A stretch of 64,000 bases of DNA, taken from Bacteroidaceae bacterium (lineage in GTDB: Bacteria; Bacteroidota; Bacteroidia; Bacteroidales; Bacteroidaceae). The stretch is taken from assembly GCA_017619335.1 (NCBI GenBank), contig JAFZSP010000033.1, forward strand, positions 124,001-188,000. The letters run 5' to 3'. Shown in pieces: positions 6,570 through 12,399 of this stretch. A program made the translations under genes and the position numbers. Below the pieces are notes generated by a model that was not told where the DNA came from, searched no databases, and was given only the letters and a program-made list of their open reading frames with translations. Every line of letters begins with the position of its first letter. Position 1 is the first letter of the stretch.

Positions 6570-6613
6570 ATTACTTTGGGGGGGGTATAGTTTTTAATAG
6601 TTTTTGATAGAGG

Positions 6614-6691
6614 GTATAGAAACTATAGAAGCTATAGAGGCTATAGAAGCTATAGAAACTATAGAGGCTAAAGAGGCTATAGAGGCTATAG
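6614..6691. repeat. 9-bp tandem array CTATAGARR
   Basis: Eight full units and one partial unit run in exact 9-bp register (CTATAGAAG, CTATAGAGG, CTATAGAAA variants, one CTAAAGAGG). The last partial unit, 6686-6691, contains the stop codon of sulP (read on the minus strand). The array then forms the leader of the four-helix-bundle gene. Confidence 0.9.
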
Positions 6692-8395
6692 TTTTTTTTC
6701 CAGGACTTCTTGGGCGCGCTGGAGGGCGAGATTGATGTGGGGCAGGATGTTTTCCTCGCCGACGATGCGGCCGAAGTCATTGCGCATGAGGACTTCATGG
6801 ACCTTGGGGTTGACACCGGAGAGGATAACGTGGATCCCTTGCTGGCGGGACATCTGGACGAGGTTCTCCAGGTTGTGCATACCCGTGCTATCCACGAAAG
6901 GCACCTTTCTCATGCGGATGATGCGGACGCGGGGACGGCCGCCCATGCGGCCCATGATTTCCTCGAACCGGTTGGCGATGCCGAAGAAGAAGGGGCCGTT
7001 GATCTCATAGACCTCACAGCCGTCGGGGATGCGGAAATGCTCCAGGTTGGTGGCCTCGAAGTCCACTTCCGTGGCGGGGTCAATCTCGTCTGTGAGGACG
7101 CTGACCTGTGTGGTCTCTGCCATGCGACGCATGCAGAGGAGACAGGCGAGCATGAGGCCCACCTCGATAGCCACGGTGAGGTCGAAAATGACCGTCAGGA
7201 AGAAGGTGATGAGCAGGACGCTGATATCCGACTTGGGGTTCTTCAGCAGCTGACGGAACGTGCGCCAACCGCTCATGTTGTAGGCCACGATCACGAGCAC
7301 ACCTGCCAGGCACGCCATGGGGATGTACTGTGCATAGGGCATGAGAATCAGGAAGATGAGCAGGAGGACGAAGGCGTGAATGATACCCGAGACGGGAGTT
7401 CGACCGCCGTTGTTGATATTGGTCATCGTGCGTGCGATGGCTCCCGTGGCGGGGATTCCTCCGAATATGGGAGAGACGAGGTTGGCCACGCCCTGTGCGA
7501 TGAGTTCCTGGTTGCTGTCGTGCCGGTCACCGATCACACCGTCTGCCACGGTGGCGGAGAGCAGTGACTCGATGGCCCCCAGGACAGCAATGGTCACGGC
7601 GGGTCCGAAGAGCCCACGGATGACCTGCCACGAGAGGGCGGGCACCTCGGGTGCCGGCAGGGCGGCGTTGATGCGGAAACGGTCTCCGATGGTATCGACG
7701 CTCTCTGCCAAGCCATTGGCTTTCAGGATGAGAACGCCCACGGTCATCAGGATGATGGCCACGAGAGAGCCGGGAATCTTGTTGAGGGCGGAGAGGTGAC
7801 CACCGACGTACTTGACCTTCAGGATGAAGGGCCAGCAGGCGATGAGGACGACACTGCCTACGCCGACGATGGCGCTCCACGGGTCAATGGCGGTGAAGTG
7901 ACGGGCGTAGGCCGCCCAGCGCCCAAGGAAGTCGGCGGGCAGGGGGCCGCTGATGGTGAGTCCCAAGAGGTCCTTGACCTGCGTGGTGAAGATGGTGAGG
8001 GCGATGCCGCTGGTGAAACCCACGACGATGGGGTACGGAATGTACTTGATGATGGTGCCGAGGCGGAACACGCCTAATAATATAAGGAACGCGCCCGCGA
8101 GGAGCGTGGCCACCATGAGTCCCTGCATCCCATACTGCTGGATGATACCGGCGATGATGACGATGAAGGCTCCTGTGGGGCCTCCGATTTGTACGCGTGA
8201 ACCGCCCAGGACACTGATGATGAGACCGGCGACGATGGCGGTGATGATTCCCTGCTCGGGGGTGACGCCCGATGCTATACCGAATGCGATGGCCAGCGGC
8301 AGGGCAACGATGCCAACGATGATACCGGCCATCACATCCTTCATGAATGTCTCGCGGTTATAGTCCCGGAGACTCTGGAGAAGGACTGGTTTCAT
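6686..8395 (-). CDS. SulP-family anion transporter with STAS domain
   Basis: The 569 residues have a membrane domain of 10-14 helices from residue 20 to about 410 and a STAS domain from about 450 to 555 (PFFFGIANRFEEIMG, VPFVDSTGMHNLE). SulP proteins move sulfate, bicarbonate or other anions across the inner membrane; the exact substrate cannot be read here. The start abuts the stop of the upstream secreted-protein gene (8396), with no gap, so the two are probably co-transcribed. The stop lies in a 9-bp array. Confidence 0.9.
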   Translation of the reverse strand: MKPVLLQSLRDYNRETFMKDVMAGIIVGIVALPLAIAFGIASGVTPEQGIITAIVAGLIISVLGGSRVQIGGPTGAFIVIIAGIIQQYGMQGLMVATLLAGAFLILLGVFRLGTIIKYIPYPIVVGFTSGIALTIFTTQVKDLLGLTISGPLPADFLGRWAAYARHFTAIDPWSAIVGVGSVVLIACWPFILKVKYVGGHLSALNKIPGSLVAIILMTVGVLILKANGLAESVDTIGDRFRINAALPAPEVPALSWQVIRGLFGPAVTIAVLGAIESLLSATVADGVIGDRHDSNQELIAQGVANLVSPIFGGIPATGAIARTMTNINNGGRTPVSGIIHAFVLLLIFLILMPYAQYIPMACLAGVLVIVAYNMSGWRTFRQLLKNPKSDISVLLITFFLTVIFDLTVAIEVGLMLACLLCMRRMAETTQVSVLTDEIDPATEVDFEATNLEHFRIPDGCEVYEINGPFFFGIANRFEEIMGRMGGRPRVRIIRMRKVPFVDSTGMHNLENLVQMSRQQGIHVILSGVNPKVHEVLMRNDFGRIVGEENILPHINLALQRAQEVLEKKL

Positions 8396-9907: not shown

Positions 9908-11569
9908 TTAGAAGTTATAGTTATAGGAGAGGGTGAAGCCCTTGGTGGCGGGGACGTAGCGGCAGACACCACCAGTGCAGTTGAAGCCGGCGCGTGTGCG
10001 GCCGTAGCCGAGCTGGAAGCGGTGTGCGCCGGTGTTGAAGGTCACGCTGCCGAGGTAGTAGTGCTCGCGGGTCTCGCCGGCGTTATACATGTCACTGAGG
10101 GTGAACATCCAATGCGGCATCACGGAGAGTTCCAGCAGGCCAAAGGCCCAGTCGCCCTCGTCGTCCTTGGTGAACAGATACTGTGCCTCACCGCGCAGGG
10201 TGAAGGTCTTGTTGAAGCGATACTTGCCCTCGGCGATGACGATGTTACTGCGTATCATACCACCCTCGCCTTCCACAGCGGTCTTGTTGTAACGCTGGTT
10301 CATGTACATCAGGTTCAGCTTGAAGGCGTTGCTTATCTTCTTGTCTATCTGCACGTTCAAGTCCTGATAGTAGGTGTCGTCGCCCCATTTCCAGAAGGGC
10401 GAGCCGTAGCCGTCACTGCCCTGCGGGCGACCGTTGAGCAGGTGGGGATTGGTGGCCAGGCTGTGGACGTGGGAGAAGTTGACCTTCACGGTGGTGCCGT
10501 ACTTGCCGCCGAGGGCGGTGTGGCGGTCGAACTTGTAACTGCCTTCTGCCTGGTAGGCCCATTCGCCGTCGGGGTTGGTGGCGTAGGGGTACAGGGCTGC
10601 GAGGGCGTAAGTATGATCCATGGTGAACGCGGGCAGGTGGTTGATCATGGATGATGTGCCGTTCATGCTCCTGCGGCTGCGGAAGGACATGTTGTCACTG
10701 CGCTTGGCTTGCAGCAGCAAGCTCATGCCGCGCTTGGAATAGCTGCCGGAAAGCATGGCTACGTAGCCGCGGCGGTAGATGTAATCGTTGTCGAAGTTGG
10801 GGTCCTGACTCTTCTGGGCGTACTCTGCCAGGACGTTCCAGGCGCCGGACTGCAGACGGGCGCGGACGTCAAAGGCGTGCACGGTCGTCGGGAGGTTCAG
10901 ACGGTGGGCGGCATCGACGAAGATATCCTCATCCTTCTCATATTTATTCACGTAGGAGCCGCCGAGCGTCAGATAGGTGCCGCTCTCCTGGAGGGTAGGC
11001 AGCCACTCTTCCAGACTCAGCTCCGCGTCGGCACCACTCACCCACGCCTTGTTGTGCTCCCAGTAACGGCGCTGGCGTCCGCTGAGCACTTTCAGTGACA
11101 CGCCGGCGAAAGGTTTCACGGCCACATGGGCACCGCGCAGGGAGTTGTCAATGCCGAGGGAGCGCTCCTCGTAGGTGCGGAGGATGAATCCGGAGCCGAA
11201 CTGCTCATAGAAGTCACCTACGGTGATGGCGAGGTTCTGCCAGTGAGCGCGGGCGTAGATATGTGCCAGTCCCCAGCCCTTGAAGTCGTTCTCGAATCCC
11301 GGCAGGGGATGCTCATTCCATTCCAGCCGCAGGCCTGCATCCACATAACGGCTCTGAAGGCGCAGGTCGCCGTAGGTGTTGGCTAGGATCTTGTCGTCGT
11401 AGGTGCGGGCGCCGATGGCGGCATCCGCCTCGGGGCGCAACACGTCGGCCTGGATGCTTCCCGTCAGGGTGATCTTGTCACCGGCTTCCTGGGCCAGCGC
11501 CGACGGCCCCACAGCCAATGTGGCCAATAGGGCAAGGAGGGTCGCGTACCTAAAGGCACGCGTTTTCAC
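9908..11569 (-). CDS. DUF6029 outer-membrane beta-barrel protein
   Basis: I place the start at GTG 11567-11569, giving 553 residues whose N-terminus VKTRAFRYATLLALLATLAV is a good signal peptide cleaved after ALAQ. The longer ATG at 11650 would add 27 residues translated from a repeat. The mature protein alternates short aromatic-rich strands to a C-terminal Tyr-Asn-Phe and matches the pattern of DUF6029 barrels found beside Omp28 and TlpA genes. The function is unknown; transport or envelope redox partnership is inferred from context. The start codon and the first residues come from composite element copy C, so the native N-terminus was replaced or acquired. Confidence 0.75.
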   Translation of the reverse strand: MKTRAFRYATLLALLATLAVGPSALAQEAGDKITLTGSIQADVLRPEADAAIGARTYDDKILANTYGDLRLQSRYVDAGLRLEWNEHPLPGFENDFKGWGLAHIYARAHWQNLAITVGDFYEQFGSGFILRTYEERSLGIDNSLRGAHVAVKPFAGVSLKVLSGRQRRYWEHNKAWVSGADAELSLEEWLPTLQESGTYLTLGGSYVNKYEKDEDIFVDAAHRLNLPTTVHAFDVRARLQSGAWNVLAEYAQKSQDPNFDNDYIYRRGYVAMLSGSYSKRGMSLLLQAKRSDNMSFRSRRSMNGTSSMINHLPAFTMDHTYALAALYPYATNPDGEWAYQAEGSYKFDRHTALGGKYGTTVKVNFSHVHSLATNPHLLNGRPQGSDGYGSPFWKWGDDTYYQDLNVQIDKKISNAFKLNLMYMNQRYNKTAVEGEGGMIRSNIVIAEGKYRFNKTFTLRGEAQYLFTKDDEGDWAFGLLELSVMPHWMFTLSDMYNAGETREHYYLGSVTFNTGAHRFQLGYGRTRAGFNCTGGVCRYVPATKGFTLSYNYNF

Positions 11570-11659
11570 CGCCGTTGCATACCAGCCATTAAAATGGCTG
11601 GCTAACCCTATCACGCCCCTACGGGGCTGAGCATTACAGCTTGGTGTCATACTTGCGAA
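11541..11659 (-). mobile_element. Composite palindromic element, copy C (left half), fused to DUF6029 gene
   Basis: Reading the minus strand from 11659, TTTCGCAAGTATG, then CTGTAATGCTCAGCCCC, the GGGGC hairpin, the AGCCATTTTAATGGCT hairpin and GCGTGCCTTTAGGTACGCGAC align with the first 120 bases of copy D at 56841. At the end of GGTACGCGAC the sequence passes into the coding region of the DUF6029 gene. The right half is absent. Confidence 0.75.
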
Positions 11660-11669
11660 AGAATTCTAT

Positions 11670-12194
11670 TTATTTCTTTTCTTTCTTCTTGGCATTGCCG
11701 TCATTGCCGTTCAGCTTGCGCACGGTCTCGATGAGTTCCTCCTCGGCGCCGTCGGTGTAGCCGTTGTGCTTATAGACGATGTTGCCTTCACCGTCACAGA
11801 TGAAGACGAAGGGAATCAGCTGCACGCCCAGGGCACGGGCCAGCTCGCTGTTGGGATCCAGGAGGACGTCGTAGGTCCATCCGTGGCTATCGACGAGCGG
11901 CTTCACCTTGTTGGTGTTCTGAGCCTGGTCAATGCTGATGGCAAAAATCTTCACGCCGGTCTCTTCCTTCCAATCCTCATAGACCTCGGCGATGGCGTCC
12001 AGCTCACGGTTGCAGGGCTTGCACCACGTGGCGAAGAAATCCACGATGAAGGGCTTGCCGCCATTGTTGAGGGTATCCACCGAGATGGCCTTTCCGGCGA
12101 TGTCTTTGAGTTTAATCTTTGGCAGCTTCTGTGCCATGGTTTCTCCTGCAAAAGCGGTGAGCAGGACTATCAAAGCAAGTAAATAACGTTTCAT
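11670..12194 (-). CDS. TlpA-family periplasmic thioredoxin
   Basis: 174 residues from ATG 12192-12194, chosen because MKRYLLALIVLLTAFAGETMAQ is a signal peptide and the promoter is 40 bases upstream. The thioredoxin fold shows FFATWCKPCNREL, with the WCxxC redox centre, and the cis-Pro region near LGVQLIPFVFI. It probably reduces disulfides in the periplasm; the genes for DUF6029 and Omp28 (itself with CxxC) follow, suggesting the partner. The tail is Lys-rich (KKKEKK). Confidence 0.85.
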   Translation of the reverse strand: MKRYLLALIVLLTAFAGETMAQKLPKIKLKDIAGKAISVDTLNNGGKPFIVDFFATWCKPCNRELDAIAEVYEDWKEETGVKIFAISIDQAQNTNKVKPLVDSHGWTYDVLLDPNSELARALGVQLIPFVFICDGEGNIVYKHNGYTDGAEEELIETVRKLNGNDGNAKKKEKK

Positions 12195-12233
12195 CTTATC
12201 AAATTTTGGGTTTCTAAAGCTTTGTTTTGGGCG

Positions 12234-12265
12234 CAAAGTTAACGATTTCACCCGAAACGGGCAAA
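12234..12265 (-). promoter_or_regulatory. Bacteroidota-type promoter for the TlpA operon
   Basis: TTTG (12265-12262) and TAACTTTG (12241-12234) are 20 bases apart on the minus strand, 40 bases before the TlpA start. Confidence 0.7.
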
Positions 12266-12399
12266 GTAAACTGCAAAAAAAACCGAAAAATGCACGGTTT
12301 CTTGAGTTTTTCATTACCTTTGCACCCGAAAATCGTCTTTCGAGGCCGTTTTTACATCCTTTTCAGATCAATCATTCACTAATAAACCTTTTTATAACT

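Follow-up and report, generated by a model that had tools for sequence, protein, structure and literature searches.

A half-element of a REP/TIR-type mobile unit is fused in frame to the signal peptide of a DUF6029 gene and recurs with the same boundary and frame in three other genes

The locus and the element junction

In the window (the whole 64,000-nucleotide stretch of DNA analyzed; its genome is designated G000, and G018, G115, G154 and similar labels denote related genomes), the gene for a DUF6029 outer-membrane-type protein follows a thioredoxin/TlpA-like gene on the minus strand (Table 1). A search of the DUF6029 protein against NCBIfam returned no family. A 120-bp copy of a repeat element lies upstream of the hydrophobic signal core and continues directly into the DUF6029 reading frame. 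From GTG 11567-11569 to position 11541, the element encodes the leader codons V-K-T-R-A-F-R-Y-A and two bases of the following T codon. Similarity to the element stops at GCGAC; the first complete codon beyond it is CTC (11539-11537), which encodes the leading L of LLALLATLAV. A preliminary description had placed the beginning of the signal core exactly where similarity to the element ends, and comparison of the copies bears this out. It had also assigned GTG and all of K-T-R-A-F-R-Y-A-T to the element, which is correct through the A; the T codon takes only two of its bases from the repeat. Elsewhere in the window, a 9-bp tandem repeat (ATAGAAGCT-type, 6598-6700) is found where a minus-strand, sulphate-permease-like gene (6686-8395) has its 3' end.

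Table 1 Features at the junction between the element and the DUF6029 gene
Feature	Position	Strand	Description
DUF6029 outer-membrane-type protein gene	9908..11569	-	PF19494, E 4e-194
Signal core LLALLATLAV	11510..11539	-	Hydrophobic by hydropathy; native, not repeat-derived
Solitary half-element	11541..11660	-	Outer end TTTCGCAAGTATG at 11660, inner end GCGAC at 11541; boundaries by copy comparison
Hairpin GCGTGCCTTTAGGTACGC	11544..11561	-	Codes most of the leader's TRAFRYA
GTG, favoured start	11567..11569	-	In frame; would give MKTRAFRYAT-LLALLATLAV-GPSALA, then Q
ACG	11573..11575	-	In-frame ATG in many family copies
REP-like hairpin CCAGCCATTTTAATGGCTGG	11582..11601	-	Just 5' of the likely start; repeat search and RNA fold
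GTG, alternative start	11612..11614	-	In frame, within element
ATG, alternative start	11648..11650	-	In frame, within element; 30 codons before RAFRYAT
Thioredoxin/TlpA-like gene	11670..12314	-	Named from sequence; same neighbour in orthologues
ATA, proposed remnant of ancestral ATG	11671..11673	-	Would have overlapped the upstream gene's stop; suggestive only

A repeat family linked to a Y1 transposase

Genome-wide statements about the element rest on pattern and BLAST searches for which the flanks were fetched. With the window copy as a 119-nt query, 60 matching pieces were found in the same genome, including about 40 other copies of full or near-full length, the best of them 87% identical over 119 nt. 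The terminal motif ACGCGTGCCTTTAGGTACGCGAC occurs at 89 sites in G000 (two mismatches at most), compared with 0 for a reversed control, and the 74 distinct contexts comprise 59 paired elements, 13 solitary ones and 2 at contig edges. The usual copy is an inverted pair: the outer end CTCAAGTTTCGCAAGTATG is followed by the hairpins GCCCCGTAGGGGC, GTAGCCAGCC...GGCTGG and GCGTGCCTTTAGGTACGC, a short centre AACAGATCCCTAT, and the mirror half. Six solitary half-elements (L055, L077, L082, L098, L099, L100) share a downstream AACTAAAAAAATTTTTTTCTTCAGAAAACACTAC-type tail and form a separate sub-family.

In G000, a half-element immediately precedes a Y1_Tnp gene (PF01797, E 1e-29), and in G115 and G154 inverted half-elements stand on both sides of a clearly similar Y1_Tnp-like gene, with GCGAC pointing inward. 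With a Y1/IS200-like transposase gene bordered in this way, the half-element represents a single terminus of a REP/TIR-type mobile unit linked to that transposase. On this view, the paired copies would be derivatives that lost the transposase by internal deletion, and the solitary copies would be isolated ends. Short A+T-rich direct repeats are present at the outer ends of some paired copies (e.g., ATTGAATAAATAA, TGATTAAATAAA). Such repeats are not an expected product of a Y1 enzyme, so the linked transposase is a candidate mover only.

The element has inverted-pair palindromic units, GTAG at the hairpin foot and a flanking Y1_Tnp (HUH) gene in common with the REP/REPIN and TIR repeats of Y1 transposases (RAYT, TIRYT; PMC3733652, PMC6006769), and its palindromes are likewise high-copy. 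In the transposase, DHVH and YVENQHEHH are similar to the Y---Q--HH signature given for subclass 1.2. That subclass is reported to be low-copy and in general to lack typical end structures (PMC6006769), whereas the element here has about 90 dispersed motif copies. At three loci (L110, L161, L166), a Y---Q--HH Y1 transposase lies between REP-like half-elements; the neighbour gene is the same in G000 and G154, suggesting vertical inheritance. Identity with the Acido-Lenti-1 RNA (RF01687) was considered and rejected: the match (11582-11628, plus strand) scores 31 bits against a gathering threshold of 37 and is on the strand opposite the element, and ten other loci holding element copies gave no match.

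The inner end of the element also has coding features. In 55 of 63 G000 copies, an in-frame ATG (MARKTRAFRYAT) lies within 8 codons of the terminal hairpin, and the commonest leader in the family is MA(R/G)KTRAFRYAT; at the DUF6029 gene, the ATG of this leader is ACG, with GTG two codons on. The RAFRYAT frame is open over 90 nt in 28 of the 63 copies, compared with 3 and 0 in the other frames, a bias that may be compositional.

Orthologues and the pre-insertion state

The DUF6029 gene lies downstream of a thioredoxin/TlpA-like gene in most relatives. The KTRAFRYAT leader is absent from every orthologue read at its N-terminus, where the leaders are unrelated to it, including that of the closest genome, G018. 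The G018 orthologue (85%) begins (TTG)KNSLFIKGLLVALLTAMAAEGQVAAQ, and others begin MKRLLAYLFAW..., MKRALLFLTACC... and MKRIALLIFNFSFLIA...; G018 has a single copy of the element motif. We looked for the observation that the preliminary description had named as contradicting it, namely KTRAFRYAT in orthologues that lack the element, and found element-free orthologues without that leader. Compared with G018, the gene has a dN of 0.089 and a dS of 0.90 (dN/dS about 0.1); it is intact and under purifying selection.

Sequence to the left of the element retains a possible trace of the older start. The segment AAAGAAATAAATAGAATTC aligns in register with AAAGAAATGAAGAGACTTC from the L006 orthologue, where the ATG and the upstream gene's stop codon overlap (16/19 positions, 0 of 500 shuffles), the alignment spanning 19 nt and being the one good match among ten orthologues. 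This suggests that the element was inserted at codon 4-5 of the old n-region without deletion and that the ATG later decayed to ATA. The reading frame from the old ATG position runs into a TGA within the element, so the old start would be unusable anyway. By inspection, two further fused genes, L115 and L065, have similar likely start remnants (TTGTATAGA versus orthologue ATGAAATATAGA; ATGAAAAAAAAAG). We also weighed an origin in which sequence separating a paired element from the gene was deleted, and set it aside; insertion fits better, given the likely start remnants to the left of the element.

Recurrent fusions and candidate start codons

Four signal-peptide genes carry the fusion, three in G000 and one in G115; all end at GCGAC and all use the RAFRYAT frame. 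In addition to the DUF6029 gene, with its solitary half-element before the signal core, they are L115/L059 in G000 (MAGKTRAFRYATMCFLALCLPLLSQAQ..., an exported protein of 383 aa from RAF, no Pfam family), L065 in G000 (MARKTRAFRYATTLCALLLLTTLPSSA..., an abhydrolase/Big_7 protein) and L223/L246 in G115 (...NTRAFRYATTALCLLFALLQPLRAQ, a GH16 protein). The leader is missing from the orthologues of all four. ORFs of at least 100 aa leaving the inner end of the 63 G000 copies number 4 in the RAFRYAT frame, versus 1 and 0 in the other frames, and these four are the three signal-peptide genes and the transposase. For 13 random solitary insertions, we roughly expect about 0.01 such fusions versus the 3 seen, an estimate reasoned from about 500 signal-peptide genes × 30 nt, one strand, one frame and 3.6 Mb rather than counted from annotation. 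Selection among insertions surely contributes to the excess.

A genus-wide pattern scan requiring T at the third base after GCGAC yielded mostly paired elements and no extra fusions. A GTDB-wide pattern scan detected the motif in further rumen Prevotellaceae/Bacteroidales and no convincing long signal-peptide fusion. L196, a candidate lipoprotein-leader fusion, was ruled out, its frame stopping after 26 codons. Two other arrangements were encountered. L112 (G000:C93:6629-8051) is a different coding insertion, in which a solitary copy lies in another frame inside a long ORF (339+ aa) with a repetitive TTAANEGTTASNEG tail; at L176 (G115:C13), a paired element lies in frame directly 5' of the gene for a signal-peptide protein, which retains an ATG of its own (MSFFPFRRSLCAALFFIFHFSLFTLSAQ). 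The gene preceding the L115 fusion (G000:C18) reads ...HPWHPNIRYFGEMAGRVCIN... and resembles a bacterial E2 ubiquitin-conjugating-like protein; the orthologues in G071, G077 and G022 are likewise preceded by similar sequence.

Chimeric assembly at a repeat would be one source of such junctions, since the genome is a 103-contig draft MAG with several element copies at contig ends. We consider this highly improbable, as both flanks at the DUF6029 gene are neighbours found in orthologues and four independent junctions in two species share the same end base and frame. It is also improbable that the element is only a 5' untranslated insertion, with the gene silenced or starting at a TTG or GTG within the core. 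REPs have been reported at ORF N-termini with the caution that many may be untranslated, their true starts lying downstream (Di Nocera et al. 2013, PMC3733652). At the DUF6029 gene, however, no start downstream of the element preserves the whole signal peptide, and both the low dN/dS and the recurrence in one frame only argue against an untranslated insertion.

Initiation inside the element, with an element-coded n-region, is the preferred reading and is probable, irrespective of the codon used. The preliminary description had called GTG 11567-11569 the only sensible start. This goes too far, as ATG 11648-11650 and GTG 11612-11614 also join the DUF6029 frame with no intervening stop. With all three candidates inside the element, the attribution of the start to the element holds, though not its assignment to one particular codon. 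Initiation at GTG 11567-11569 is the likeliest case, with roughly an even chance. It would yield an n-region of 11 residues with a net charge of +3, and simple measures of the predicted leader (this basic n-region, a 9-mer hydropathy of 2.68 and cleavage between ALA and Q) agree with a Sec signal peptide. RNA folding places this GTG in the linker between two element hairpins, unpaired in the centroid structure and partly paired in the minimum-energy structure.

Otherwise, translation may begin at the outer ATG 11648-11650 (or GTG 11612-11614) and read through about 37 (or 25) mostly element-coded residues before the core, as in in-frame Rickettsia palindromic elements. This sub-case of element-supplied initiation, which overlaps the preferred reading, is a serious contender at somewhat under an even chance. 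ATG is generally a stronger start than GTG, and the outer ATG is likewise in frame in the two other G000 fusions. The GH16 fusion of G115 has no in-frame ATG closer than about 16 codons upstream; read-through is the sole possible reading there, and the predicted protein must use a long n-region rather than the short element leader. This keeps the long version plausible for the DUF6029 gene. Against it, an n-region of 38 residues (net +5) is unusually long, whereas the short version matches the length of the nearest orthologue's leader (27 residues). Moreover, the outer ATG sits in the element's own terminal repeat, and its conservation is no evidence of use.

Based on these comparisons, we propose that a half-element of a Y1/IS200-linked REP/TIR unit landed among the codons for the n-region of the DUF6029 signal peptide. 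Such a half-element would bring a start codon and a short basic leader in the frame leaving its inner end, and the insertion would therefore have replaced the charged n-region while sparing export. Decay to ATA would then have removed the ancestral ATG, which had overlapped the upstream gene's stop codon, and initiation would now lie inside the element. The earlier suggestion that a mobile repeat was domesticated as an export leader is supported by the leader-free orthologues, the purifying selection and the three further same-frame fusions.

Precedents exist for repeat-derived coding or leader sequence. An ERIC/RU-2 repeat provides residues 1-30 of a predicted 41-aa signal in the 144-aa Yersinia protein YPO1552, whose relatives also have unrelated signal sequences (Delihas 2007, PMC2759123). 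That case involves another element and phylum; here, the n-region only is affected, in four genes with the same boundary and frame, and the old start has apparently decayed. Rickettsia palindromic elements (RPEs) are in-frame insertions in protein genes (PMC10969869, PMC3733652). As with RPEs, four conserved genes here contain an in-frame palindromic element that their orthologues lack. However, RPEs insert at many positions of many genes, whereas the fusions found here all affect signal-peptide n-regions, with the element as a possible source of the start. A literature search, conducted mostly outside subscription journals, found no paper on a REP end repeatedly supplying a start codon and n-region. 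What is added here is the one-frame, one-boundary recurrence in four unrelated exported proteins of two species, an identified transposase-linked end, and a pre-insertion state visible in orthologues.

More speculatively, and in our view unlikely, the inner end might be a portable initiation and n-region cassette. Equipped with an ATG and basic codons, it could enter signal peptides without loss of function and time and again become the start of an exported protein, perhaps with shared hairpin-controlled translation. In Bacteroidales, starts assigned automatically close to such repeats can be wrong. One mobile repeat family has repeatedly rewritten, always in one frame, the 5' ends of genes for exported proteins, and orthologues reveal the state before insertion; whether a REP-type element was exapted as start codon and export leader thereby becomes directly testable.
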